Source: Mycolicibacterium chubuense NBB4
GTDB lineage: Bacteria; Actinomycetota; Actinomycetes; Mycobacteriales; Mycobacteriaceae
Direction of reading: 5' to 3'
NCBI RefSeq assembly: GCF_000266905.1
Contig: NC_018027.1
Span: 1,550,001-1,614,000, forward strand
Length of the DNA stretch: 64,000 nt
Made by a program: the position numbers and the translations under genes
Shown here: one piece after another, positions 33,474-46,234 of the stretch
Layout of the letters: each line of letters begins with the position of its first letter
Position numbering within the stretch: position 1 is the stretch's first letter
The notes under the pieces: generated by a model
What the model saw: only the letters and a program-made list of their open reading frames with translations
Told to the model about the DNA's origin: nothing
The model's database searches: none

Positions 33474-33502
33474 CGCAGTCCGTTCTTCGCGCAAGCGCTC
33501 AT
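33470..33502 (-). CDS. Micro-ORF 3 ([10 protein letters not shown]) of MIRU-like repeat before nuoC
   Basis: Ten codons plus TGA. The ATG shares its A with the stop of micro-ORF 2 (TGATG), and the TGA overlaps the nuoC GTG (GTGA). It is part of a 32-bp tandem repeat. Whether the peptide matters or only the coupling is unknown. Confidence 0.5.
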
Positions 33503-33534
33503 CACCGCAGTCCGTTCTTCGCGCAAGCGCTCAT
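33502..33534 (-). CDS. Micro-ORF 2 ([10 protein letters not shown]) of MIRU-like repeat
   Basis: Ten codons plus stop, identical in sequence to micro-ORF 3 and joined to its neighbours by TGATG overlaps on both sides. Confidence 0.5.
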
Positions 33535-33569
33535 CACCGCAGCAGCCCTTTCTTCGCGCAAGCGCTCAT
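33534..33569 (-). CDS. Micro-ORF 1 ([11 protein letters not shown]) of MIRU-like repeat after nuoB
   Basis: Eleven codons plus stop. The ATG shares its A with the nuoB stop (TGATG). Its last residues KGLLR copy the C-terminus of NuoB (LKGLLR), showing how the repeat captured or duplicated the gene end. Confidence 0.5.
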   Translation of the reverse strand: MSACAKKGLLR

Positions 33570-34123
33570 CACCGCAGCAGCCCTTTCAGTTCGATCGTCG
33601 GCGGTACCGCCAACGCGGCCTGCTCGGCCTCCCTGATCGCCTCCTCGCGGTGTACTCCGAGCGGCATCTGCTGAATCTTGTCGTGCAGTTTGAGGATTGC
33701 GTGCAGGAGCATCTCGGGCCGTGGCGGACAGCCGGGCAGATAAATGTCGACCGGCACGACATGGTCGACGCCCTGCACCACGGCGTAGTTGTTGAACATG
33801 CCGCCCGAGGAGGCGCACACGCCCATCGCCAGAACCCACTTCGGCTCGGCCATCTGGTCGTAGATCTGGCGCAGCACCGGCGCCATCTTCTGGCTCACCC
33901 GCCCCGCGACGATCATCAGGTCCGCTTGCCGTGGTGTCGCCGAGAATCGCTCCATGCCGAACCGCGAGATGTCGAAGCGTGGTCCGGCGGTGGCCATCAT
34001 CTCGATCGCGCAGCAGGCCAGGCCGAACGTGGCGGGCCACAGCGACCCTTTGCGGACGTAGCCGGCGACCTTCTCCACGGTCGACAGCAGAATGCCGCCG
34101 GGAAGGCGTTCCTCTAATCCCAT
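33569..34123 (-). CDS. nuoB: NADH-quinone oxidoreductase subunit B
   Basis: 184 residues. Holds cluster N2, the last electron carrier before quinone: tandem cysteines in [11 protein letters not shown], then [18 protein letters not shown] and [12 protein letters not shown] 34123 follows GGAGGTCTGC and lies inside the last codons of nuoA (10-bp overlap). Upstream frame extensions do not resemble NuoB. The stop is coupled by TGATG to a micro-ORF rather than to nuoC. Confidence 0.95.
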
Positions 34124-36220: not shown

Positions 36221-36562
36221 TCAACCTCCGTCGCCGTACCCGGGATGATCGATGGCCAACCGGTGGCCGACCAGCAGCCGCAGGCACGCCACGACCTCGT
36301 CGGCACGATCGTCCAGCCGGCCCGCACGGATGGCCTGCGCCAGCGCCGCCTCGTCGCCGACACCGAGACCGGCGAGCGATTCGAGTACCGGGCCGGCGGT
36401 CTCGTCGAGCAGTTCGCGCTCGACGATGCGCAGCACGTTGGCGGCGACGCGCGCGTGGAAGCCGACCTGCCCGCCGCACGCGGCGCGGACGTCATTGTCG
36501 AGGAAGTCGGCGACGGCGGCGACCAGCTCGGCTGCCGTCGGGCGCCCCGTCAGAGCCTTCAT
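36221..36562 (-). CDS. DUF6285-like protein, LvaB-type partner of an APH kinase
   Basis: 113 residues, soluble and helix-rich: RPTAAELVAAVADFLDNDVRA at the N-terminus, then GFHARVAANVLRIVERE and two further amphipathic helices. This pattern is that of the small proteins found directly after APH-type kinases. In Pseudomonas putida LvaB is such a protein and assists LvaA in phosphorylating 4-hydroxyvaleryl-CoA. ATG 36562 overlaps the kinase stop by four bases (ATGA). The link to LvaB is from family memory and gene order. Confidence 0.7.
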   Translation of the reverse strand: MKALTGRPTAAELVAAVADFLDNDVRAACGGQVGFHARVAANVLRIVERELLDETAGPVLESLAGLGVGDEAALAQAIRAGRLDDRADEVVACLRLLVGHRLAIDHPGYGDGG

Positions 36563-37530
36563 TGCGGACCCCCTCCGGTCATCAGATCCAGCACGTCCCA
36601 TTCCGTTTCGCTGACTCGCCGCCCGATCGCGGCCAGTTCCACCGAGCGCGTCTCACCCGACAGATGGCGCTCGGCCTGATGGCGGCAGATGACGCCCCAC
36701 CGCAGCGTCGCCACGGTGAGCCACCAGCGGAACGCGTCGCGGTCCAGCGTGGTGCCCGACGCCCGCTCGTAGGCGCACAGGAACGCCTCGACGCTGCCGA
36801 GTCCGCCGGCGCCCAGCGACTCCGGTGCGCCGAACCGCCACGCCCTGACGCAGAACCACGCCAGGTCCTCGTAGCGATCGCCGATGTGGGTCAGCTCCCA
36901 GTCCAGCACCGCCGCCAGGCCTGACTGGTCGACGATCAGGTTGCCCATCCGAAAGTCTCCGTGCACCAGGCACAGCGGGGACGGATCGGGACGCCGGTCA
37001 CCGAGCCGGCGGAAGGCCCATTCGAAAGTCGCTGTCGTATCGGCCATCTCGTCGAGGCGGGTGCGCCAGCCGGCGAGCTCGTCGAGCGTGGACAACCCGA
37101 TGCCGTCGGGGTCGGCGCGATGGATCGCCGCCAACGCGGCGGCACACTGCTCCAGCAGCCGGGCTCGGGCGGCGTCGTCGAGTCCGCGGAAGATGCGCCG
37201 GACGATGGTCTCACCGGCGATGGCATCACAGATCAAGTATGGATTCCCCAGTGCCTCCGGCGAATTGTCGGCACCCACGATGTGGGGAACGGGGGCGCCG
37301 GCGACGGCCGCGCGCTGCTGCACCCGCGCCTCCAGCTCCATACTCGCGTGGACCTCGTCGGGAGAGCCGGTGCGCAGGATCAACGCCCGCCGGCCTCGCG
37401 TCTCGAGCGCATCGAAAGCCCAGGTGGTCCTGCTCGCACCGCCCGTGAGTCGCTGCAGGTTGTCGACCTCGACCTCGCCGAGAACCGGCCGCAGCACTGC
37501 CTGCAGCGCCGGCGCCAGGTGATCGGTCAC
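36559..37530 (-). CDS. APH-family acyl-CoA kinase, LvaA/ACAD10-11-kinase-like
   Basis: 323 residues. APH fold: GGASRTTWAFD in the N-lobe, ALILRTG with the ATP Lys/Arg strand, catalytic loop LVHGDFRMGNLIV (Asp, Asn) and VLDWELTHIGDRYEDLAW (metal Asp). The second motif closely resembles that of LvaA and the kinase domains of mammalian ACAD10/11. GTG 37530 overlaps the acyl-CoA dehydrogenase stop (GTGA), and the stop overlaps the DUF6285-like start. Expected reaction: ATP-dependent phosphorylation of the 4-hydroxyl of an acyl-CoA. The exact substrate is unknown. Antibiotic resistance is unlikely. Confidence 0.8.
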   Translation of the reverse strand: MTDHLAPALQAVLRPVLGEVEVDNLQRLTGGASRTTWAFDALETRGRRALILRTGSPDEVHASMELEARVQQRAAVAGAPVPHIVGADNSPEALGNPYLICDAIAGETIVRRIFRGLDDAARARLLEQCAAALAAIHRADPDGIGLSTLDELAGWRTRLDEMADTTATFEWAFRRLGDRRPDPSPLCLVHGDFRMGNLIVDQSGLAAVLDWELTHIGDRYEDLAWFCVRAWRFGAPESLGAGGLGSVEAFLCAYERASGTTLDRDAFRWWLTVATLRWGVICRHQAERHLSGETRSVELAAIGRRVSETEWDVLDLMTGGGPQ

Positions 37531-38765
37531 CTGCGCCCGAATCCGAAGAGCCGCTGGGCGACCCGGCGAATCTGGATCTCCTCGGCGCCCTCGGTGATCC
37601 GGTACCGGCGGTGGTGGCGGTAGATGTGTTCGAACGGCTCGTGTCTGCTGTATCCGACGCCACCGAACACCTGCATGGCACGATCGGCGGCCTCGCACAC
37701 CAGCCGGTTGGCCCGGTAGTTGGCCATCGACACCTTGTCGGAGACCTCCATGTGGTGGTTGGCGTCGAGGTGGCTGGCGGCGTAATACACCAGCAGGCGC
37801 ACCATCTGCGCCTCGGTCTGCAGTTCCACCAGCGGCCATTGCACGGCCTGGTTGACCGCCAGCGGCTTACCGAACACCGTCCGTTCGCCGGCGTAGGCGA
37901 CCGCGCGGTCGATGCAGTACTGCGCGGCGCCCAGGCTGCTCGCGGCTTGCCGGATTCTGTTCTCGTGCAGAAACGTCTGACCGACCTCGAGGCCGCGGTC
38001 CACGTCGCCGAGCACGGCGCCGGCCGGCACCCGGACGTTCTCGAGCAGCACCTCGCCGTGGTCGGTGGGCATGTTGAACGTCCACCAGTAGTACGGCACC
38101 GAGAAGCCCGGCGCGTCGGTCGGCACCAGGAACGCGGTGATCCCGCGCGCCTGCCCCGGCTCGCCCGACGTGCGGGCGAAGATCAGGTCGTGGGTGGCCC
38201 GGTGCACGCCGGTGTTCCAGCGCTTGGCGCCGTTGATGACCCAGTCGCCGCCGTCCCGCACGGCCGTGGTCTCCAGCCAGGTGGCATCGGAGCCGTGGTT
38301 GGGTTCGGTGAGCCCGAAGGCCATCGATCGTTCGCCGGTGATCAGCGCCTCGGTCCACTCCTGCTTCTGCTCGTCGGTCCCGAACCGATCCATCATGATC
38401 ACCTGCGGGAAGTTGCCGACGATCGACGACTCGTCCTGCAGATCGTTGTGCAGGCCGAGCCCCTTGTGCGCCAGGTGTTCCCGGATCACGGCCATGTCGA
38501 TGTTGCTGCCGTCGCGGCCGCCGAACTGCGACGGCAGGCCGTAGCGCAGCCATCCGGCCGCGTCGGCGCGCCTGCGCATCTCACCGAGGAGGTCTTCCCA
38601 TTCGCGCCGCGGGATGCCGCCGTTGTCCCAGTCGGTGCGCGCGTTCTCGCGGCGCTGATCGAAATACTGGATGTGTTCGCGCTCCAGCGGTTTGATCTCG
38701 GCCTCGATGAATGCGTCCATCTCGGCGAGCACTCCGGGCAGATGGTCGGGCAGGCTGAAATCCAC
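37527..38765 (-). CDS. Acyl-CoA dehydrogenase, LvaC/ACAD10-11-like
   Basis: 412 residues. FAD/substrate motifs: AFGLTEPNHGSDATWLETTA, INGAKRWNTGV, VFGKPLAVNQAVQWPL, VFGGVGYSRHEPFEHIYRHHRRYRITEGAEEIQ with the catalytic Glu in TEG. The YFDQRRENARTDW N-terminus and the His/Arg-rich final region resemble ACAD10/11 and LvaC, which remove the phosphate from 4-phosphoacyl-CoA and lead to the 3-hydroxyacyl-CoA rather than simply dehydrogenating. GTG 38765 has AAAGGAG at seven bases. It follows the TetR gene by 23 bp and overlaps the kinase gene. Confidence 0.82.
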   Translation of the reverse strand: MDFSLPDHLPGVLAEMDAFIEAEIKPLEREHIQYFDQRRENARTDWDNGGIPRREWEDLLGEMRRRADAAGWLRYGLPSQFGGRDGSNIDMAVIREHLAHKGLGLHNDLQDESSIVGNFPQVIMMDRFGTDEQKQEWTEALITGERSMAFGLTEPNHGSDATWLETTAVRDGGDWVINGAKRWNTGVHRATHDLIFARTSGEPGQARGITAFLVPTDAPGFSVPYYWWTFNMPTDHGEVLLENVRVPAGAVLGDVDRGLEVGQTFLHENRIRQAASSLGAAQYCIDRAVAYAGERTVFGKPLAVNQAVQWPLVELQTEAQMVRLLVYYAASHLDANHHMEVSDKVSMANYRANRLVCEAADRAMQVFGGVGYSRHEPFEHIYRHHRRYRITEGAEEIQIRRVAQRLFGFGRR

Positions 38766-38788
38766 TCTGATCTCCTTTGACCGGCTTC

Positions 38789-39409
38789 TCAGTATCCGTA
38801 CAGCGTTTTCTTCCAGATCCGTGACAGCGTGGCGATGGCGTCCTCGTCGCTGATGTCGACCGCCAGGCTCGACGTGCCGACGATCACGGTGGTGAAGTTC
38901 TCGAACAGCAGGGCGATCGCCGCCGCGGTGTGCTCGGCGTTCAGTTCGGTGCCGTACCCCTGCTCCTGCGCGCGCCGCACCGACGCCCCCACGATGTCCA
39001 TGCCGAAACGGCGGAACTCGTTCTGCACCGCCGCGAAACGCGGCTGGGTCGCCGCCAGTTGAGCCACGGCGATCATGATGCCGATGTTCTGCTTGAACAT
39101 CGTCCAGTAGCCGGTCACGACCGTCGTGAAGAAGGCGTCGTCGTCGGCCGACTCCGGCAGTTGCACGCTCAGCCCCGACGGCGTGACGACGTCGCGGAGG
39201 AACGACTGTGCCAGCGCGGCCAGCAGGTCCTCCTTGTCGGCGAAGTAGCGGTAGAAGGCGGCCGGCGACTTGCCCGCCGCGGAGGTGATCTCGCCCAGCG
39301 TGGTGCCGTGGAAGCCGCGCTCCGCGAACAACTTCCGGGCCGCGAGCTCGATGGCCTGGCGGGTCTGTCTGCCCTTGGCGCTCAACGTCTCCGACGGTCC
39401 GGGCGGCAC
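38789..39409 (-). CDS. TetR-family regulator inside the dioxygenase/LVA-like operon
   Basis: 206 residues. Helix-turn-helix about residues 15-60: QTRQAIELAARKLFAERGFHGTTLGEITSAAGKSPAAFYRYFADKEDLL pattern. A ligand domain of TetR_C type follows with helices FFTTVVTGYWTMFKQNIGIMIAV. GTG 39409 is four bases after the lyase stop, so it is co-transcribed. Probable local regulator; candidate target is the AAAGT/ACTTT repeat before the first gene of the operon (43888-43909). An acyl-CoA ligand is likely by analogy. Confidence 0.82.
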   Translation of the reverse strand: MPPGPSETLSAKGRQTRQAIELAARKLFAERGFHGTTLGEITSAAGKSPAAFYRYFADKEDLLAALAQSFLRDVVTPSGLSVQLPESADDDAFFTTVVTGYWTMFKQNIGIMIAVAQLAATQPRFAAVQNEFRRFGMDIVGASVRRAQEQGYGTELNAEHTAAAIALLFENFTTVIVGTSSLAVDISDEDAIATLSRIWKKTLYGY

Positions 39410-39413
39410 GCGG

Positions 39414-40319
39414 CTATCCCAGGATCCGGTCGCCGGCCCGCAGCAGAGAGCTCGGCAGGTCGTGTCCGACGGCCTGCTGCGCCACCCGGGCGGCCGCGAT
39501 TGCGGCCTGGATATCGACGTCGACGTGTATTCCGCTGTCGCGCAACAGGTACACCAGGTCTTCGGTGGCGATGTTGCCACTCGCGCCGGGCGCGAACGGG
39601 CAACCGCCGAGCCCTCCGACCGAAGCGTCCAATCGGGCGACCCCGGCGCCGACGGCGGCGTACGCACTGGCCAGACCGGCGCCGCGGGTGTTGTGGAAGT
39701 GGGCGCCCAGCGGAACACCGTCGATTCTGGGCCGCACGAGCGCGATCAGGTCGGCGACCCGCCGGGGCGTGGTGGTGCCGATGGTGTCGGCGATCGCCAG
39801 CCGGTCGACGCCCGCGTCGGTGGCGGCGGTGACGATGTCGAGCACGCGCTGCGGGGGCGTCGGGCCGTCGAACGGGCAGTCCCATGCGGTGGCCACGATC
39901 ACCTCGACCGCGGCACCGCTGTCGTGGGCGATGGTGACGATCTCGGGGATCTGTGCCGTCGCCTCCGCCGACGAGCGGCCCACGTTGGAGCGGCTGTGCC
40001 CGTCGGCGGCCGAGACCACGTACTCGATCGACCGCAGACCCGCAGCGATGGCCCGTTTCGCCCCGTTCGGGCTGGCGACCAGAGCGGAGAACTCGATGCC
40101 GTCGAAGTTGTGCAGTTCGGCGGCGAGTTCCGCTGCGTCCGCCAGCGCCGGGACCTTGGACGGCGACACGAAGGCCGTGGCCTCCATCTCCCGCACGCCG
40201 GTCGCGGCGACGGCAGCGAGCAGTTCGAGCTTGGCGGACAACGGGATCGGCGTCTCGATCTGCAGCCCGTCGCGCAGCGAGACGTCGCGGATGTCGACGT
40301 GGGCGGGCAGGCCGGTCAC
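39414..40319 (-). CDS. HMG-CoA-lyase-like enzyme
   Basis: 301 residues, DRE-TIM metallolyase. Metal/catalytic Arg-Asp in IRDVSLRDGLQIE, metal ligands in GAHFHNTRGAG, and the catalytic Cys loop GLGGCPFAPGASGNIATEDLVYLL, a clear HMG-CoA lyase signature (usual text CPYAxGASGN). It cleaves 3-hydroxy-3-methylglutaryl-CoA or a related 3-hydroxy-3-alkyl acyl-CoA into acetyl-CoA and a keto acid. GTG 40319 overlaps the CoA-transferase stop. It lies between a CoA-transferase and the LVA-like genes, so it probably performs a late carbon-carbon cleavage in the same pathway. Confidence 0.88.
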   Translation of the reverse strand: MTGLPAHVDIRDVSLRDGLQIETPIPLSAKLELLAAVAATGVREMEATAFVSPSKVPALADAAELAAELHNFDGIEFSALVASPNGAKRAIAAGLRSIEYVVSAADGHSRSNVGRSSAEATAQIPEIVTIAHDSGAAVEVIVATAWDCPFDGPTPPQRVLDIVTAATDAGVDRLAIADTIGTTTPRRVADLIALVRPRIDGVPLGAHFHNTRGAGLASAYAAVGAGVARLDASVGGLGGCPFAPGASGNIATEDLVYLLRDSGIHVDVDIQAAIAAARVAQQAVGHDLPSSLLRAGDRILG

Positions 40320-41524
40320 AGCACCCCCGCCTCGTGCAGTGCTTCGAGTTCCGCGTCGGTCCTTCCGAGGAGCCCGCGGTAGATCTCGTCGTTGTGCTGG
40401 CCGGGCCGCGACGGACCGGCGTTGCGGATGGTGCCGGGCGTCTCGGAGAGCACGGGGACGACGCCGGGTCCCTTGACGTTGCGCCCGATCCGCTCGTCCC
40501 AGTGGTCGGCGATCATCCCGCGGGCGAGCAGTTGCGGATCCTCGACCACCTCGGCGACGGTGTTGATCGGTCCGCTGATCACGCCCGCCTCCGACAACGT
40601 GGAGATGATGTCGGCCGGCTCGCGTTCGGCGGCCCACGCGCCGATGATCTTGTCCAGTTCGTCCTGATTGCGCCCGCGCGCCACGTGATTGGCGAACCGG
40701 TCGTCGGTGGCGAGCTCGGGTTGCCCCATCGCCTGGCACAGCCGCCGGAAGACGGTGTCCTGATTGGCCGCGATGACCACCCAGGACCCGTCGGCGGTCG
40801 GATAGATGTTCGACGGTGCGATGCCCTCCAGCCGGGTGCCCGACGGCCCACGAACCACTCCGCCGACGTCGTAGTCGGGAATGGTGGATTCCTGTACGGC
40901 CAGGCATGATTCGGTGAGCGCGGCATCGACGACCTGGCCCTCGCCGGTCACCGTCCGCCGGTAGAGGGCGGCCAGCGCGCCCTGGGCGGCGAACATCCCG
41001 GCCAGGCTGTCGCCGAGGGAGAGCGCCAACCGCGGGGGAGGACCGCCGGGGAACCCGTTCATGTGCCGCAACCCGCTGGCCGCCTCGGCGACCGATGCGT
41101 AGCCGGCCTTGTGCGCCTCGGGACCGGTCTGCCCGTAGCCGGAGACGCGCACCAGGATTATGCCGGGATTGCGTGCGTGCAGGACGTCGTAGCCGAGGCC
41201 CCACTTCTCGAGCGTGCCGGGCCGGAAGTTCTCGACGATGACGTCGCTGTGCTCGACCAGGTCGAGAAACAGAGCGCGGCCCTGCGGCACCCGGAGATTG
41301 AGGGTGACGGCTTTCTTGTTGCGCGCGTGGACGGTCCAGAAGAAGTGGTGGCCGTCGAGCTCGGCCTGGCCCCAGGTGCGCAGCGGGTCGGGTGCGCCCG
41401 GGGGTTCGATCTTGATGACCTCGGCGCCCATGTCACCCAGCAGGCGCGCGGCGAACGGCCCGGAGATCAGCGTGCCGACCTCGATGACGCGGACCCCGTC
41501 GAGCGGTCCGGTCGGGTGCGTCAC
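40316..41524 (-). CDS. CaiB/BaiF-type (class III) CoA-transferase
   Basis: 402 residues. N-terminal GPLDGVRVIEVGTLISGPFAARLLGDMGAEVIKIEPP, then HARNKKAVTLNLR, NFRPGTLEKWGLGYD and SGYGQTGPEAHKAGYA, followed by the catalytic Asp region of this family (ALSLGDSLAGMFA). It moves CoA from one carboxylic acid thioester to another, activating the pathway acid without ATP. GTG 41524 overlaps the hydrolase stop, and the stop overlaps the lyase start. Substrate unknown; an acid from the ring-cleavage step is plausible. Confidence 0.88.
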   Translation of the reverse strand: MTHPTGPLDGVRVIEVGTLISGPFAARLLGDMGAEVIKIEPPGAPDPLRTWGQAELDGHHFFWTVHARNKKAVTLNLRVPQGRALFLDLVEHSDVIVENFRPGTLEKWGLGYDVLHARNPGIILVRVSGYGQTGPEAHKAGYASVAEAASGLRHMNGFPGGPPPRLALSLGDSLAGMFAAQGALAALYRRTVTGEGQVVDAALTESCLAVQESTIPDYDVGGVVRGPSGTRLEGIAPSNIYPTADGSWVVIAANQDTVFRRLCQAMGQPELATDDRFANHVARGRNQDELDKIIGAWAAEREPADIISTLSEAGVISGPINTVAEVVEDPQLLARGMIADHWDERIGRNVKGPGVVPVLSETPGTIRNAGPSRPGQHNDEIYRGLLGRTDAELEALHEAGVL

Positions 41525-42723
41525 GGCGCGCTCGCGAGGTCGTGGCGCTGCAGCCAGTCGGTGACGACGTTCACCGCTTCGCGCAGCCTGTCGCGCTGGT
41601 CGGGCCCGGAGTAGTAGTGGTTGGCGCCGGGGATCTCGTGCATCTCCTTGTCCGGATGTCCGATCGCCTCGTAGATCCTCCGCGTGTGGCTCGGGGTGCA
41701 GGCGTCGTCGGCGAGATTACCGATCACCAGGGCGGGCACGGCGATGTCGGGCCCGCACTTGACGGCGTCGCCGTGGGCGTCGTCGTAGCTCCACTGCGAC
41801 AGCCAGCTGCGCAGCGTGCAGAACCGCGCGAGTCCCACGGGGCTCATGTTCACCACCTGAGGATCACCCAGATAGCAGGTTCCCGGGGTGCGTTCGTTGG
41901 GATCGACCGCCGGATCGAGCCAGCGGGGGTCGGCCATGGTGCCGTGCACGACGAAGGCGAACTCGTCGTCCGGCCGGCCCGCGGCCCTCAACTCGGCGAG
42001 CTTGTCCTTGACCCACTTCGTGATTCGCCGGTTGCGGGCGACCTGGGCGTCTCGGTAGCGGTCGAGGAACTCAGGAGTGTAGGGCGGCTGGTTGGGGTTG
42101 TCCGGGTTGTACAGATCCAGCTCCGGGGCGCGTCTGGTCGGGTCCAGCTCGTCGAGGATCGAGGCATCGAGCCACTCGGTCATGGTGCCGTGCCTGCTGA
42201 TGTGTGCGGCCAGCAGCATGATGCCGTCGGCGGGGATCAGTCCGAGCTTGGTGAGGTCCGGCCCGTCGCCGGACGGGCTGGCGGTGACGGTCGGGTGCTG
42301 AGCCTGCTGCTGATAGAACGCCGACAACGATCCACCGCCGCTCCAGCCGGCGAGAACGACCTTGGAATAGCCGAGCCGGTTCTTGGCATCCTTGATGCAC
42401 TCGCCGAGGTCCTCGACAACCTTCTCCATCAGCAGTGCCGAATCCGTGCCGCGGAACCGGCTGTTGCAGTAGATGACGTGGTGCCCGGCGCGCGCCAGCG
42501 CATTGATCATCGGCAGGTAGGCACCGCCGCCGATCGGGTGCATGAACACCAGCACGGTGTCTGACGGCTTGTTCTTCGGCTTGAGCAGGTAGCTCTCCAG
42601 CACCACCAGCTCGGCAACGCCGCCGTACACGTCGCGAACCGACGAGTTGTTCTGGTAGGCAACCAGATACGGTATGCGCTCGTACTCGTGCTTGACTGGT
42701 GCGCCGCTCGTCGTCGTGCTCAT
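41521..42723 (-). CDS. Alpha/beta hydrolase of the dioxygenase operon
   Basis: 400 residues. Alpha/beta hydrolase signs: FMHPIGGGAYLPM (oxyanion), YCNSRFRGTDS, nucleophile Ser in LAGWSGGGSLSAFY, Asp in IGNLADDACTPSH and His in IPGANHYYSGP. The long middle insertion (residues about 160-290) forms a large lid. ATG 42723 shares its A with the stop of a MSACAK micro-ORF (TGATG); a GTG-type start further upstream would read through the repeat and is rejected. Likely hydrolyses an ester, lactone or C-C bond of the pathway intermediate. Confidence 0.82.
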   Translation of the reverse strand: MSTTTSGAPVKHEYERIPYLVAYQNNSSVRDVYGGVAELVVLESYLLKPKNKPSDTVLVFMHPIGGGAYLPMINALARAGHHVIYCNSRFRGTDSALLMEKVVEDLGECIKDAKNRLGYSKVVLAGWSGGGSLSAFYQQQAQHPTVTASPSGDGPDLTKLGLIPADGIMLLAAHISRHGTMTEWLDASILDELDPTRRAPELDLYNPDNPNQPPYTPEFLDRYRDAQVARNRRITKWVKDKLAELRAAGRPDDEFAFVVHGTMADPRWLDPAVDPNERTPGTCYLGDPQVVNMSPVGLARFCTLRSWLSQWSYDDAHGDAVKCGPDIAVPALVIGNLADDACTPSHTRRIYEAIGHPDKEMHEIPGANHYYSGPDQRDRLREAVNVVTDWLQRHDLASAP

Positions 42724-42755
42724 CAGTACCCTCGCTTCTTCGCGCAAGCGCTCAT
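42723..42755 (-). CDS. Micro-ORF (MSACAKKRGY) of a MIRU-like unit in the dioxygenase operon
   Basis: Ten codons plus TGA. The ATG shares A with the stop of the dioxygenase gene, and its TGA shares A with the ATG of the hydrolase gene. The first 20 bases equal those of the micro-ORFs between nuoB and nuoC, 9 kb away. Confidence 0.55.
   Translation of the reverse strand: MSACAKKRGY
42733..42754. repeat. Single copy of the MSACAK repeat core
   Basis: The plus-strand stretch from TTCTTCGCGCAAGCGCTCAT matches the nuoB-nuoC repeat core at 33483-33502, 33515-33534 and 33550-33569. Same orientation relative to the operon genes. Confidence 0.75.
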
Positions 42756-43882
42756 CAGTGCTGCCCGAGGTCGTTCGCCAGCACCTCCGCCGACGGCACC
42801 AGCCGCCTGCGGGTGTCGACCGCGATCACCTGCCAGTCGACGGAGGAGTAGTCGTCGAACTTGCGCCGCGCCCGCTCTCGCGCCTTTTCCGGCGCGCCGT
42901 GGTGCACACCTTGCGGGGCGTGCGAGATCAGCCCGGGCGGCATGGGAATCCCGTACAGCGAGCCGCCGTGGAAGAAGGCGATTTCGTCGAAGTCGACGTT
43001 GCGGTGGTACCACGGCGTGCGTTCCGTCCCCGGCCTGCCTTCGGCGGGTTTGGGCAGGAAATTCATCACGTAGACGCCGGTGGCCTGCATGAACAGATGC
43101 ACGGTCGGCGGGAGGTGCACGCTGTCCGAGGTCACGACGTTGTAGTCGTCGATGTTGAAGGTGAACGCGAAATTATCACCCCGCCAGCCCTCGACGTCCA
43201 GCGGATGGTGTTGGTAGTACAGGGAAGTCGTTCCGGCTCCGTTGATCTCCGAATGAACGAGCCTCACCTCGTACTCGCCGTCGGTCTGCGGGCCGTCGCC
43301 ATCGCCGCAGGGCGCAGGGTCCGGGATCACGGCCTGCGACGGGTCGAACGGGAAGTGACGGCCGAGCTGTCCCGGCGGCGGGACCCGGAACTCGTCGGTG
43401 GCCTGGATCATCAGCCAGGTCGACGGCTCGTCGGGAATGTGGCGCCACGTGCACGCCTTGGGCACGTAGATCCAGTCGCCCTTGCGGTACCGCAGCGGCC
43501 CGAACTCGGTCTCGATCAGGCCGGTGCCCTCGTGCACGAACGACAGCAGATCTCCGTCGACGTGGCGCACGAAGAACGGCATCGGTTCCGCGCGCCGCGA
43601 CAACAGCACCTGGCAGTCGGCATTGGAGAACATCAGCAGGGGACCGCCGTGGGCATCGGTGGCGTCGGCCGGCTTCAGCTCGCTCGACAACACGTCGATG
43701 GGGCGCAGGGCACCGACGGACCGATATGCCGTGGGATCGTGCCGGCGGTAGAGGTTCGCGGTGCGCCCCGTGAAGCCGCCGCGGCCGAGCTCGTCATCCT
43801 TCAGGCCGTCGAGATCGGCATGAATCCGCTTGGGTGTCTTGCCTTTTCGGAGGTGAATAAACGATTCCACCGGCGCTCCCAT
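42755..43882 (-). CDS. Homogentisate 1,2-dioxygenase-like ring-cleavage enzyme
   Basis: 375 residues, cupin fold. The iron region is recognisable: WYHRNVDFDEIAFFHGG (YHRN then acidic) and SHAPQGVHHGAP (His...His-Gly), as in homogentisate 1,2-dioxygenases; N-terminal half has FVRHVDGDLLSFVHEGTGLIETEFG. It would open a hydroquinone-type ring (homogentisate or a relative) with O2. It is somewhat shorter than the usual 430-450 residues of true homogentisate dioxygenase, and no maleylacetoacetate isomerase or fumarylacetoacetase gene is near. The substrate is therefore probably different. First gene of an eight-gene operon. Upstream are AAAGT/ACTTT repeats. Confidence 0.78.
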   Translation of the reverse strand: MGAPVESFIHLRKGKTPKRIHADLDGLKDDELGRGGFTGRTANLYRRHDPTAYRSVGALRPIDVLSSELKPADATDAHGGPLLMFSNADCQVLLSRRAEPMPFFVRHVDGDLLSFVHEGTGLIETEFGPLRYRKGDWIYVPKACTWRHIPDEPSTWLMIQATDEFRVPPPGQLGRHFPFDPSQAVIPDPAPCGDGDGPQTDGEYEVRLVHSEINGAGTTSLYYQHHPLDVEGWRGDNFAFTFNIDDYNVVTSDSVHLPPTVHLFMQATGVYVMNFLPKPAEGRPGTERTPWYHRNVDFDEIAFFHGGSLYGIPMPPGLISHAPQGVHHGAPEKARERARRKFDDYSSVDWQVIAVDTRRRLVPSAEVLANDLGQH

Positions 43883-43887
43883 CGTCG

Positions 43888-43909
43888 AAAGTGAAACTGA
43901 CTTTACTTT
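43888..43909. promoter_or_regulatory. AAAGT/ACTTT repeats upstream of the dioxygenase operon
   Basis: AAAGT (43888-43892) is inverted at ACTTT (43900-43904) with a 7-base spacer, and a second ACTTT follows at 43905-43909. The AT-rich palindrome lies 6-28 bases before the first gene of the operon in otherwise GC-rich DNA. It is a plausible target of the operon's own TetR protein, but this is inferred from position alone. Confidence 0.4.
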
Positions 43910-44057: not shown

Positions 44058-44447
44058 TCAGTCGAGGAGATCGACCCTCACCGTCAGCAGATTGGTCCCG
44101 AACGCGCGGACCCCCAGGTTGTTGAACTGGGGCAGTGTCCGCATGCGTGCGTGGGCGTCGTCGTCGGGGAGGAGATGTGCCGTGCCACGATGCCAGCGGC
44201 CGTTGATCCGCACGCGCACGGCCGGGTCGGCCATGATGTTGCGGACGTACTGCGACCGGTCGCCGAACTCGGAGACGAACCAGAATTCGTCGCCGATCCG
44301 CTTGCCGCCCAACGGAGTGACGCGCGGTTGCCCGGACGTGCGGCCGGTGGTCTCCAGCAGGGTCTGGAACGGCATCCGGCGCATCACCTGGTTGGCGATG
44401 TTCTTCTGGAAGAACTTGGTGACGCGGTCGCGCAAAGAGTCGGCCAT
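44058..44447 (-). CDS. Ddn-like (DUF385) deazaflavin-dependent protein
   Basis: 129 residues, the split-beta-barrel F420-binding family common in mycobacteria. Marks: TGRTSGQPRVTPLGGKRIGDEFWFVSEFG, then YVRNIMADPAVRVRINGRW and a C-terminal barrel strand. Members reduce quinones or activate nitro drugs with F420H2. ATG 44447 follows a GAAGGATC ribosome site. It lies 28 bp after the flavin monooxygenase gene in the same direction, so it probably works with it. Confidence 0.82.
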   Translation of the reverse strand: MADSLRDRVTKFFQKNIANQVMRRMPFQTLLETTGRTSGQPRVTPLGGKRIGDEFWFVSEFGDRSQYVRNIMADPAVRVRINGRWHRGTAHLLPDDDAHARMRTLPQFNNLGVRAFGTNLLTVRVDLLD

Positions 44448-44475
44448 GGGGAGATCCTTCCTGTAGACGGGGGAG

Positions 44476-45645
44476 TCACACCATTGCAGTGCGCGGGATC
44501 TTCATGCCCAATGTCAAGGCCCCCGCGAGCTCGCGGCTGGTGTCGTAGTCGAACACGACGTGTCCGCCGATGACGCCGACGTCGCGCCGGATCCGCTGCA
44601 GCGGATGATCCACGAAATGCGCGGAGGCCCCCGAGGCGCCGAGGAGCTCCTCGATGACCGCGCGGGATTCGCGCACGATGTGTGCCGCGGCAAGCCTGGC
44701 CTGGCCGCGCACCGGCTTCGGCACTGCGTCTCCGGCGCTGAGGATCGTGTCGATCTCGCCGACGGTGTCGGCCAACAGTCCGCGCAGCGCCCGCAACCGC
44801 ACGAGCGACTCCGCGAGATGCGCCGAGGCCATGGGCTTGTCCTTCTGCATGACGCCCTCGTAGGCGAGGAACCGCTGCGAGAGCCGTTCGGCGTAGATGT
44901 CCGCGGCGCGTTCGGCGCAACCGAGAGCCGGCATCGCCGCAAGCAGGGCCAGCGCGGGCACCATCGGCCACCGATAGGTGTCGGCGTCGTGAATCGCGGA
45001 ACCGGGCGCGGTGCCGGTGTAGATGTCGGGCACCGCCACCAACCGGTGCGTGGGCACGAAGACGTCGTCGATCACCACATCGTTGGATCCCGTCGCGCGC
45101 ATGCCGTCGGTGTGCCACACGTCTTCGACGCGCACATCCGCCATCGGCAGCAGCGCCAGCACCGGAAGGATGCTGCCGGGCTCCCGCTCGCACAACGCTC
45201 CGACGATGACCCAGTTGCCGTCCATCACCCCGGTGGCCCACGACCACCGGCCCGTCAGCCGGATGCCGCCGTCGCACGGCACACCGCGGCCCGTGGGCGC
45301 CAGCGGGGCAGGGGCGAGGAAGGGGCGCGTCGCGAACGCCTCATCCTGGGCCCGCTCACTGAACAGGGCGAGCATCCAGTTGTGCAGGACGTAGAAGCCC
45401 AGCGTCCAGGCGCTCGACGCGCACCCGTGCGCCATCCGGCGGACAGGGTCGAAGATCGCCGGGAACGCTGCTTCGGCGCCGCCGTAGCGCGCCGGGACGA
45501 GCAAGTCGAAGAGGCCGGACTCCCCGGCCTCGGCGAGGGTGGCGGCGGGCAGCCTGCGCAACCGCTCCGCCTCCCCGGCCCGCTCGGCGAGCCGCTCGAT
45601 GAATTCGGCAGTGACGGGCGAACCGTCCGCGACGGTCAGGGGCAT
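44476..45645 (-). CDS. Acyl-CoA-dehydrogenase-fold flavin monooxygenase (HsaA/DszC-like)
   Basis: 389 residues. The fold is that of acyl-CoA dehydrogenases, but the motifs are those of two-component flavin monooxygenases: WTLGFYVLHNWMLALF, GIRLTGRWSWATGVMDGNWVIVGA, TGSNDVVIDDVFVPTHR and the final HPLQRIRRDVGVIGGHVVFDYDTSRELAG. The catalytic Glu of true dehydrogenases is absent at the usual place. It would hydroxylate an aromatic or heterocycle using reduced flavin from a separate reductase, which is not adjacent. An 18-bp palindrome (45658-45675) lies 13 bases before its ATG, between it and the upstream TetR gene. Confidence 0.78.
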   Translation of the reverse strand: MPLTVADGSPVTAEFIERLAERAGEAERLRRLPAATLAEAGESGLFDLLVPARYGGAEAAFPAIFDPVRRMAHGCASSAWTLGFYVLHNWMLALFSERAQDEAFATRPFLAPAPLAPTGRGVPCDGGIRLTGRWSWATGVMDGNWVIVGALCEREPGSILPVLALLPMADVRVEDVWHTDGMRATGSNDVVIDDVFVPTHRLVAVPDIYTGTAPGSAIHDADTYRWPMVPALALLAAMPALGCAERAADIYAERLSQRFLAYEGVMQKDKPMASAHLAESLVRLRALRGLLADTVGEIDTILSAGDAVPKPVRGQARLAAAHIVRESRAVIEELLGASGASAHFVDHPLQRIRRDVGVIGGHVVFDYDTSRELAGALTLGMKIPRTAMV

Positions 45646-45682: not shown

Positions 45683-46234
45683 TCAGCGGGCCAGCATGAC
45701 GTCGAGGAACCGGTCGCGCTGGGAAGCCAACCGCGCGTTGGGCGTCTCGCCGGACAGGTGCAGGAAGCCGACACCTACGGCGAAGGTGGCGTTGGCCCGC
45801 ATGTCGGCGTCCTCCCCGGTGAACCCGGCGTCTTCATATGCGCGGCGGACCGCGTCGAGCACCTGGCGATCGGCGGCGCGCACACTCGCGGCGGCGGCGG
45901 GGTCGGTGCGGGCCCACTCGCGCATCGCGCGCTCCAGGCTCCAGTGCCGCTCGCCGAGCAGCGACGCCATCATCTGCGCCAATCGGTCGCGCGGCGGCAG
46001 ATCACCCAGGGCGCCGAAGCGGCTGCGGTCGCGGTCTCGCAGCTGCCCCCAGGCCTCGACGACAGCGGCCCGGTAGCCGGCCATGTCGGTGAAGTGCCAG
46101 TAGAAGCTGCCCTTCGTCACCCCGAGGCGCCGGCACAGCCGGTCGAGTTTGAGTGCCTCGAGACCGCCGTCGGCGAGGATCGCGTAACCCGCCTGGACCC
46201 AGTCGTCGGCCGACAGCCTGCTCGCTCTCGTCAT
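45683..46234 (-). CDS. TetR-family regulator of the flavin monooxygenase
   Basis: 183 residues. N-terminal helix-turn-helix with LSADDWVQAGYAILADGGLEALKLDRLCRRLGVTKGSFYWHFTDM pattern, typical of TetR proteins with the KGSFYWHF recognition helix. The remainder is helical, with an Arg-rich middle (LRDRDRSRFGALGDLPPRDRL). AGGAGG eight bases before ATG 46234 is a strong ribosome site. Its stop is eight bases from the palindrome preceding the monooxygenase gene. Ligand unknown. Confidence 0.85.
   Translation of the reverse strand: MTRASRLSADDWVQAGYAILADGGLEALKLDRLCRRLGVTKGSFYWHFTDMAGYRAAVVEAWGQLRDRDRSRFGALGDLPPRDRLAQMMASLLGERHWSLERAMREWARTDPAAAASVRAADRQVLDAVRRAYEDAGFTGEDADMRANATFAVGVGFLHLSGETPNARLASQRDRFLDVMLAR

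Follow-up and report, generated by a model that had tools for sequence, protein, structure and literature searches.

A candidate ring-opening operon of mycobacteria with a kinase-linked acyl-CoA dehydrogenase of non-ACAD10/11 active site

In the genome of Mycolicibacterium chubuense NBB4, a stretch of 64,000 nucleotides (contig NC_018027.1, positions 1,550,001 to 1,614,000; hereafter the window) carries eight genes on the minus strand, running from 43882 to 36221, that pose a question: what does a homogentisate dioxygenase-like protein (HGDL) do in the company of an acyl-CoA dehydrogenase (ACAD), an APH-type kinase and a small DUF6285 protein? ACAD10 and ACAD11 are the human enzyme pair for 4-hydroxy fatty acids and have only recently been given a function. 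A first reading of this DNA, the original prediction, took the last three genes for a split ACAD10/11-type module acting on 4-hydroxyacyl-CoA, as in LvaC, LvaA and LvaB of Pseudomonas putida, placed behind ring-cleaving enzymes. We favour, with modest confidence, a different account, in which a single-regulon catabolic operon opens a ring and includes a kinase-coupled hydroxyacyl-CoA module whose active site is not that of ACAD10/11. The operon would probably open an aromatic ring and feed hydroxylated acid fragments into fat breakdown. Neither a described pathway with this gene set nor a bacterial precedent was found in the open-licence full-text literature, and within that literature the prediction's claim of novelty holds.

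As assigned by Pfam and NCBIfam models, the genes follow the order HGDL, alpha/beta hydrolase (ABH), CaiB-type CoA-transferase (CaiB), HMG-CoA lyase-family enzyme (HMGL), TetR-family regulator, ACAD, kinase and DUF6285 from 5' to 3'. Four of the seven junctions are 4-base overlaps (GTGA at ABH/CaiB, CaiB/HMGL and ACAD/kinase, ATGA at kinase/DUF6285), and the remaining three are short gaps. Gene calls and domain matches thus agree with the eight genes and the tight packing first proposed; the title of the original prediction omitted the TetR gene inside the operon, and its extent left out the co-oriented upstream genes at 44058-45645. To place the operon among its relatives, 201 genomes of the family were surveyed, including 15 of the same genus (the M. 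chubuense genome among them), with at least 64% identity as the threshold for an HGDL orthologue. Such an orthologue was present in 31 of the 201 genomes and in 14 of the 15 same-genus genomes; the other 30 loci were fetched and compared by tblastn, with gene calls from a simple in-house caller. The conserved set that the original prediction proposed to look for occurs in full in 13 of 14 same-genus relatives (10 uninterrupted, three with one inserted gene) and in one locus of another genus (L046; L and G numbers are our handles for loci and genomes). Close to HGDL, window included, tblastn located CaiB in 22 of the 31 loci, HMGL in 17 and the trio of ACAD, kinase and DUF6285 in 15; the eight-gene arrangement is thus less widespread than its 5' part. 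Among the best 120 of 641 HGDL relatives, the named organisms are Mycolicibacterium, Mycobacterium or less precisely named actinobacteria.

The joint control of the two halves was assessed from a palindrome, AAAGTAAAGTCAGTTTCACTTT, directly upstream of HGDL, which gave zero matches in 100 shuffles. At no more than two mismatches it is found in 15 of the 31 HGDL loci, exactly those with the complete eight-gene set. It overlaps the -10 element of a promoter-like site (TTGACC-17-TAAAGT, 43928-43900), which is a consensus match only, as is every result of our promoter and terminator scans. In three loci (L037, L039, L042) the operon is split by an opposite-strand gene inserted between HMGL and TetR, which in L037, the one scanned, is a CMAS-type methyltransferase. 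In each of them the palindrome recurs, with one mismatch, 25-26 bp ahead of the called start of TetR, the gene that heads the 3' half. Because this second copy precedes the 3' half, both halves would fall under the same TetR and one inducer, with the internal TetR probably repressing the operon from the palindrome. That both halves form one regulon is well supported by this shared operator sequence, and the single operon first proposed is upheld by packing and operator alike. Separate transcription of the 5' and 3' halves, which the original prediction had named as evidence that would count against it, is opposed by the same common sequence.

The ACAD was then compared with ACAD10/11 at the residues that define that family. 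In the portion of the 2025 structure paper used here (PMC12440821), R626, H634 and R637 of ACAD11 bind the 4-phosphate, D753 is catalytic, and all are conserved only in ACAD10/11 and LvaC. The corresponding columns hold F, Q, S and E in 6/6 operon ACADs, which have neither the phosphate-binding R-H-R nor the catalytic Asp. As alignment controls, 2wbi and 4hr3 have R, H and R, which a short-chain ACAD lacks. Of 13 further members, all from other genera, 12 have F-Q-S-E and one has F-Q-A-E. The one ACAD each from Halomarina (Archaea) and Sulfitobacter is also F-Q-S-E; these two were placed by signature and 59-63% identity, outside the tree described below. The nearest solved structures of the operon ACAD are short-chain ACADs and the like, with ACAD11 ranking 21st.

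In a 43-row tree, the F-Q-S-E sequences (8 rows) and the R-H-R-D sequences (10 rows) each formed a clade with support of 100/100, and the two clades were joined at 100/98. The tree took 8 of 16 F-R-Q-S-E and 10 of 47 R-R-H-R-D rows, with clades read from the tree itself, and the ACAD10/11-LvaC family was represented by 2wbi and 4hr3 rather than by LvaC. The operon ACADs therefore fall in a sister clade of their own, outside ACAD10/11-LvaC. At the sequence level it is strongly supported that the F-R-Q-S-E ACADs are a distinct sister family and not part of the ACAD10/11 family, and this sister family looks undescribed.

The kinase keeps the catalytic D220 and N225 (in HGDFRMGN) expected of an LvaA/ACAD11-type kinase, a placement with which an index check agreed. 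Its identity to the ACAD11 kinase is 21%, and in an 18-row FastTree, in which LvaA was not a row, it falls with DUF6285-linked Variovorax kinases (0.994) rather than with that kinase. At the tentatively assigned positions of the CoA-contacting R86 and R176 it has Leu, beside the alphaC Glu, and Asp; here R86 was placed by motif (an index check gave Phe), and the R176 region is gapped and poorly aligned. DUF6285, of which one copy was found in the genome, is fused to the kinase in all seven long kinases scanned. Neighbourhoods were scanned for the 80 best DUF6285 relatives out of 297, with no Pseudomonas among the 80; ACAD calls below 340 aa and kinases outside 280-480 aa were left out of the counts. 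The scan yielded 47 R-R-H-R-D rows (43 once four references are set aside) and 16 F-R-Q-S-E rows (10 once the six operon ACADs are set aside), so the kinase-DUF6285 system goes with both ACAD types. Seven of these 10 are mycobacterial copies of the same operon; the other three belong to Saccharopolyspora, Amycolatopsis and an Acidimicrobiaceae assembly. A third ACAD type, short-chain, is found at two Variovorax-type loci. Outside mycobacteria, the Sulfitobacter trio is accompanied by genes for a CoA ligase, an enoyl-CoA hydratase and a thiolase, and the Halomarina trio, whose small neighbour has no Pfam match, by CoA-ligase and enoyl-CoA hydratase genes. The Saccharopolyspora trio is near genes for a gluconolactonase-type protein, AtuA, CaiB, a hydratase and an SDR. 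All three contexts fit a hydroxy acid entering beta-oxidation.

These data bear directly on whether the trio should count as a genuine split ACAD10/11 module (LvaCAB), phosphorylating 4-hydroxyacyl-CoA and then eliminating the phosphate. The published facts used in this work come from portions of PMC11342911, PMC12440821 and PMC6692424. Like LvaABC and mammalian ACAD10/ACAD11, the trio combines an APH-type kinase with an ACAD and a small partner, LvaB in P. putida being, in those portions, a 12 kDa protein that interacts with LvaA. The order claimed for the trio differs, however: by the locus tags in the portion of PMC6692424 used, P. putida has LvaA (kinase, PP_2791)-LvaB-LvaC (ACAD, PP_2793), and the window has ACAD-kinase-DUF6285. 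No clade in the tree is nearer to ACAD10/11 than that of the operon ACAD, and the 43 R-H-R-D ACADs near DUF6285 stand, among the cases listed, mostly beside kinases 43-50% identical to that of the window; yet the phosphate-binding and catalytic residues differ in every operon ACAD and in distant members, the ACAD clade is separate, and the kinase belongs to another APH clade of the sample. In addition, the genome encodes at least two further ACADs with R-H-R-D, one of them beside a kinase. We thus rejected ACAD10/11 membership for the operon ACAD on its residues and its separate clade, and consider a true ACAD10/11 module unlikely. The original prediction had named a grouping of the ACAD and kinase with unrelated families as evidence against it; both turned out to be related to the ACAD10/11 systems while standing outside them. 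A kinase-coupled hydroxyacyl-CoA module, differing from ACAD10/11 in its active site, remains plausible and is the best reading of the trio.

Other loci also carry genes of these families. Among 24 ACAD paralogues examined, of 52 found in the M. chubuense genome, two have R, H, R and D: L096:1303-3620 (near G000:C3:3835741-3837746) and L092 (near G000:C3:94760-95632). One of these directly precedes an APH-type kinase and is a better split ACAD10/11 candidate than the operon trio. At L114:1225-2866, a kinase resembling that of ACAD11 (143 bits against it) adjoins a gene that by eye resembles a histidine phosphatase; an LvaA homologue of Pseudomonas citronellolis is described with such a neighbour in the published portions used. 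In many of L123-L195 (Streptosporangiales and relatives), dozens of the 80 loci, DUF6285 is divergent from a kinase and R-H-R-D ACAD pair, a conserved LvaABC-like unit. No description of DUF6285 or of this unit was found in the open-licence full-text literature.

Turning to the 5' half, HGDL aligns with P. putida HGD (3zds) across the active site. The iron ligands H293, E300 and H328 and the catalytic base H256 (numbered from 43882) are invariant in 21/21 orthologues, matching the His-Glu-His triad and catalytic His of HGD; an ungapped alignment would assign D299 and H327 to two of the ligand places, and these are also invariant. HGDL (375 aa) scores 32 bits against the HGD equivalog TIGR01015, with a cut-off of 510.75. 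This cut-off is unfit for the lineage, since L201, beside a fumarylacetoacetase (FAH) gene, and L203, beside an HPPD-like gene, score just 60 and 80 bits. Both belong to eight control loci (L200-L207) with more distant HGDL relatives, in five of which the neighbour was scanned: HPPD-like genes adjoin the relative in L203, L204 and L206 (38-41% identity), FAH in L201 (33% identity) and a transporter in L202. Because distant relatives adjoin HPPD-like or FAH genes, ring cleavage is the likely family chemistry, and the lineage, judged by these neighbourhoods, contains genuine tyrosine-pathway HGDs. The HGD-like ring cleavage first proposed is supported to this extent by the intact triad and by these relatives.

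The ring itself appears to be a different one. No Lys or Arg occurs in the pocket loop (HGDL 305-316) in any of 21 orthologues. The column aligned to K349 of P. putida HGD, which we take to contact the substrate carboxylate, holds Lys or Arg in 3zds, in L200-L207 and in L084 (45% identity, on an M. avium plasmid), and Met in L085. Ordinary tyrosine breakdown was rejected, as the original prediction had it: the operon has no FAH, no HPPD above cut-off was found in the genome, and no second HGD-model match occurs elsewhere in it at E<=1. Tocopheronic-acid/tocopherol-quinone, methoxyhydroquinone or prenylquinone substrates are not supported beyond analogy.

ABH is the constant companion of HGDL. 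It lies 3' of HGDL on the same strand in 30/30 fetched loci by tblastn, hence in 31/31 with the window, and in 29/31 by gene calls; in L057 an ACAD gene sits between the two. Its Ser-Asp-His triad is invariant. The pairing in 31/31 loci suggests that ABH replaces fumarylacetoacetase. Compared with the classical pair of HGD and FAH, the iron ligands, the catalytic His and a hydrolase as constant partner are alike, whereas the hydrolase here has an alpha/beta fold and the host genome holds no HPPD above cut-off. A second parallel is the Hsa (secosteroid) set, in which the flavin monooxygenase HsaA is followed by the ring-cleaving dioxygenase HsaC and the alpha/beta C-C hydrolase HsaD. The logic of monooxygenase, dioxygenase and alpha/beta hydrolase is shared, but the dioxygenase of the operon is HGD-like and the monooxygenase upstream of it scores 246 bits against the HsaA model, below the cut-off of 450. 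Flavin hydroxylase-type genes of two unrelated kinds occur in HGDL stretches, the HsaA type in 9/31 and the HpaB type in 4/31 (one member scanned per kind; sometimes on the strand opposite to HGDL). The cluster of the F420H2 quinone reductase-family gene is present in 6/31 stretches and that of the second TetR in 8/31.

Two further gene neighbourhoods were noted. In L057, L058, L059 and L061, from other genera, HGDL is preceded by an HpaB-type hydroxylase and an ACAD-like gene (scanned in L058), and L059 adds further ACAD, SDR and hydratase genes; this is a related but different ring-cleavage cluster. The M. avium plasmid pP7a (L084, L242) has relatives of both HGDL (45%) and ABH (52%). They are separated by about 40 kb, and the genes around them include P450, CoA-ligase and mycofactocin-coupled ones.

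CaiB and HMGL have their nearest solved relatives in HMG metabolism: a succinate--hydroxymethylglutarate CoA-transferase (9br7) for CaiB and 6nds for HMGL. CaiB matches Pfam CoA_transf_3 but reaches 260.4 bits against the equivalog NF052585 (succinate--glutarate/HMG CoA-transferase; cut-off 750). HMGL exceeds the cut-off of the HMG-CoA lyase model NF004283 (273.2 against 246 bits), and at E<=1e-10 no other gene of the genome matches the HMGL family. Taken on these relationships, the two genes could form a simple 3-hydroxy-3-methylglutarate/leucine branch, with HGDL as a cupin that does not cleave rings. This we find quite improbable. The iron triad of HGDL is intact, its relatives sit beside HPPD-like genes, and hydroxylases occur near it; moreover, within the genus HMGL and HGDL are present in the same 14/15 genomes and both missing from G085, a correlation that a leucine enzyme need not show. 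HMGL alone is no marker of the pathway, since HMGL-family genes occur at E<=1e-30 in 150/201 family genomes, most of them far more distant.

Based on these assignments, we propose a pathway for the ring-opening operon. The substrate would be a hydroxylated aromatic, probably a hydroquinone-type ring with an acyl or alkyl side chain, perhaps hydroxylated by the upstream flavin monooxygenase. The HGD paralogue would open the ring, ABH would cleave the ring-opened diketone in place of fumarylacetoacetase, and CaiB would load CoA onto a freed acid. HMGL may then split a 3-hydroxy-3-alkyl-type acyl-CoA. The kinase and DUF6285, a separable module, would phosphorylate a hydroxyacyl-CoA, and the ACAD would turn the product into a beta-oxidation intermediate. 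Because the ACAD active site is unlike that of ACAD10/11 and LvaC, the position of the hydroxyl or phosphate, or the ACAD reaction itself, presumably differs from theirs.

Several observations weigh against this pathway. None of the eight genes encodes an enoyl-CoA hydratase, a carboxylase or a CoA ligase. As HGDL lacks the basic residue of genuine HGDs, its ring substrate would not be homogentisate-like in a simple way. The structure models of HGDL and ABH are weak (mean pLDDT 60 and 70), and the fold matches of ABH are generic alpha/beta hydrolases. ABH relatives (47-52%) occur on plasmids with no HGD gene within 9 kb on either side in 4/4 regions; on one of these plasmids, an HGDL relative lies at a distance of about 40 kb. 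The insertion is common to all three split loci, which probably reflect one event. G085, of the same genus, has no HGDL or HMGL and shows no ABH, CaiB or TetR in the 20 kb read, and it keeps the trio, which can thus stand alone. ACADs assigned to this lineage by a match to that of the window at E<=1e-100 (nine best candidates scored per genome) also occur in 22 of the 170 HGDL-negative family genomes. Finally, in the 16 other-genus HGDL genomes that have no local trio, the ACAD lies elsewhere in 13 and is absent from three. Each of the 13 ACADs located elsewhere adjoins a kinase. DUF6285 is encoded nearby as its own gene in six of these cases and is unseen in one; in the remaining six it is joined to the kinase, as Pfam shows for three and kinase length suggests for the other three.

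The free-standing trios of G085 and of 13/16 other-genus genomes, and those of Halomarina and Sulfitobacter, where the displayed stretch contains no HGD-like gene, could mean that two independent functions share one regulator: an aromatic/HMG-type 5' set and a general hydroxy-fatty-acid 3' module, joined by chance in mycobacteria. Such an arrangement seems to us somewhat unlikely, given that the ACAD lineage is present in 28/31 HGDL-positive against 22/170 HGDL-negative genomes (Fisher p 2e-17, uncorrected for shared descent) and that the same operator stands before both halves after the split. Within genus g23, the lineage occurs in 6/6 HGDL-positive and 2/8 HGDL-negative listed genomes (p 0.009).

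The features of the locus are collected in Table 1, together with the upstream genes that may be partners of the operon. For HGDL, GTG 43870 is the more likely start on sequence comparison, since 16/20 relatives begin exactly at the aligned MESF and ATG 43882 is only 5 bases from the operator. ATG 42723 is likewise the more likely start of ABH, since the listed TTG (42747) falls within a dispersed repeat.

Table 1 Features of the operon and of its upstream flank in the window
Feature	Position	Strand	Basis or remark
HGDL, homogentisate dioxygenase-like ring-cleaving dioxygenase (predicted)	42755..43870	-	GTG 43870 preferred over listed start 43882
ABH, alpha/beta hydrolase, triad S136-D347-H377 (numbered from TTG 42747)	41521..42723	-	ATG 42723 preferred
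CaiB, family III CoA-transferase	40316..41524	-	Pfam CoA_transf_3; solved-structure relatives
HMGL, HMG-CoA lyase-family enzyme	39414..40319	-	NF004283
TetR-family regulator, within operon	38789..39409	-	Pfam; tblastn
ACAD, F-R-Q-S-E type	37527..38765	-	Residue alignment, tree
APH-type kinase, DUF6285-linked clade; GGASRTTW loop, HGDFRMGN catalytic loop	36559..37530	-	Pfam, tree
DUF6285 small protein, probable kinase partner	36221..36562	-	PF19802 80.8 bits, cut-off 28.1
Flavin-dependent hydroxylase oxygenase component, HsaA / p-hydroxyphenylacetate hydroxylase type; possible partner	44476..45645	-	
F420H2-dependent quinone reductase family protein; possible partner	44058..44447	-	PF04075 100.8 bits
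Second TetR-family regulator, beside flavin monooxygenase	45683..46234	-	
Operator palindrome AAAGTAAAGTCAGTTTCACTTT	43888..43909	-	Likely (predicted) binding site of the operon's TetR

The dispersed repeat is 32-35 bases long with the core TGAGCGCTTGCGCGAAGA, which has 29 exact copies genome-wide against 0 for a reversed control, partly in head-to-tail arrays. One copy, at 42737-42754, lies at the HGDL stop codon and the listed ABH start, and three more lie at 33475-33577, around what is presumably the nuoC/nuoB junction.

What the locus may mean goes beyond one operon. Tentatively, the F-R-Q-S-E ACADs and the DUF6285-linked kinases could be a second, ancient and cross-domain kinase-coupled class, phosphorylating and eliminating a hydroxyl at a position or carbon that ACAD10/11/LvaC leave untouched (e.g. 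tertiary, or beyond C4). In mycobacteria this class would have joined an HGD paralogue and ABH in a pathway not yet described, with ring opening of an alkylated hydroquinone and catabolism of its hydroxylated side chain. The sister family, which keeps the kinase partnership with all four examined residues changed, offers a natural test of how phosphorylated acyl-CoA is recognized, and of whether other hydroxy acids use the phosphorylation trick. The co-regulated ring-cleavage genes give a concrete route to the natural substrate of the trio. For the mycobacteria themselves, the gene set would point to a degradation pathway; its first gene currently bears the label homogentisate dioxygenase in an organism that lacks the tyrosine pathway.

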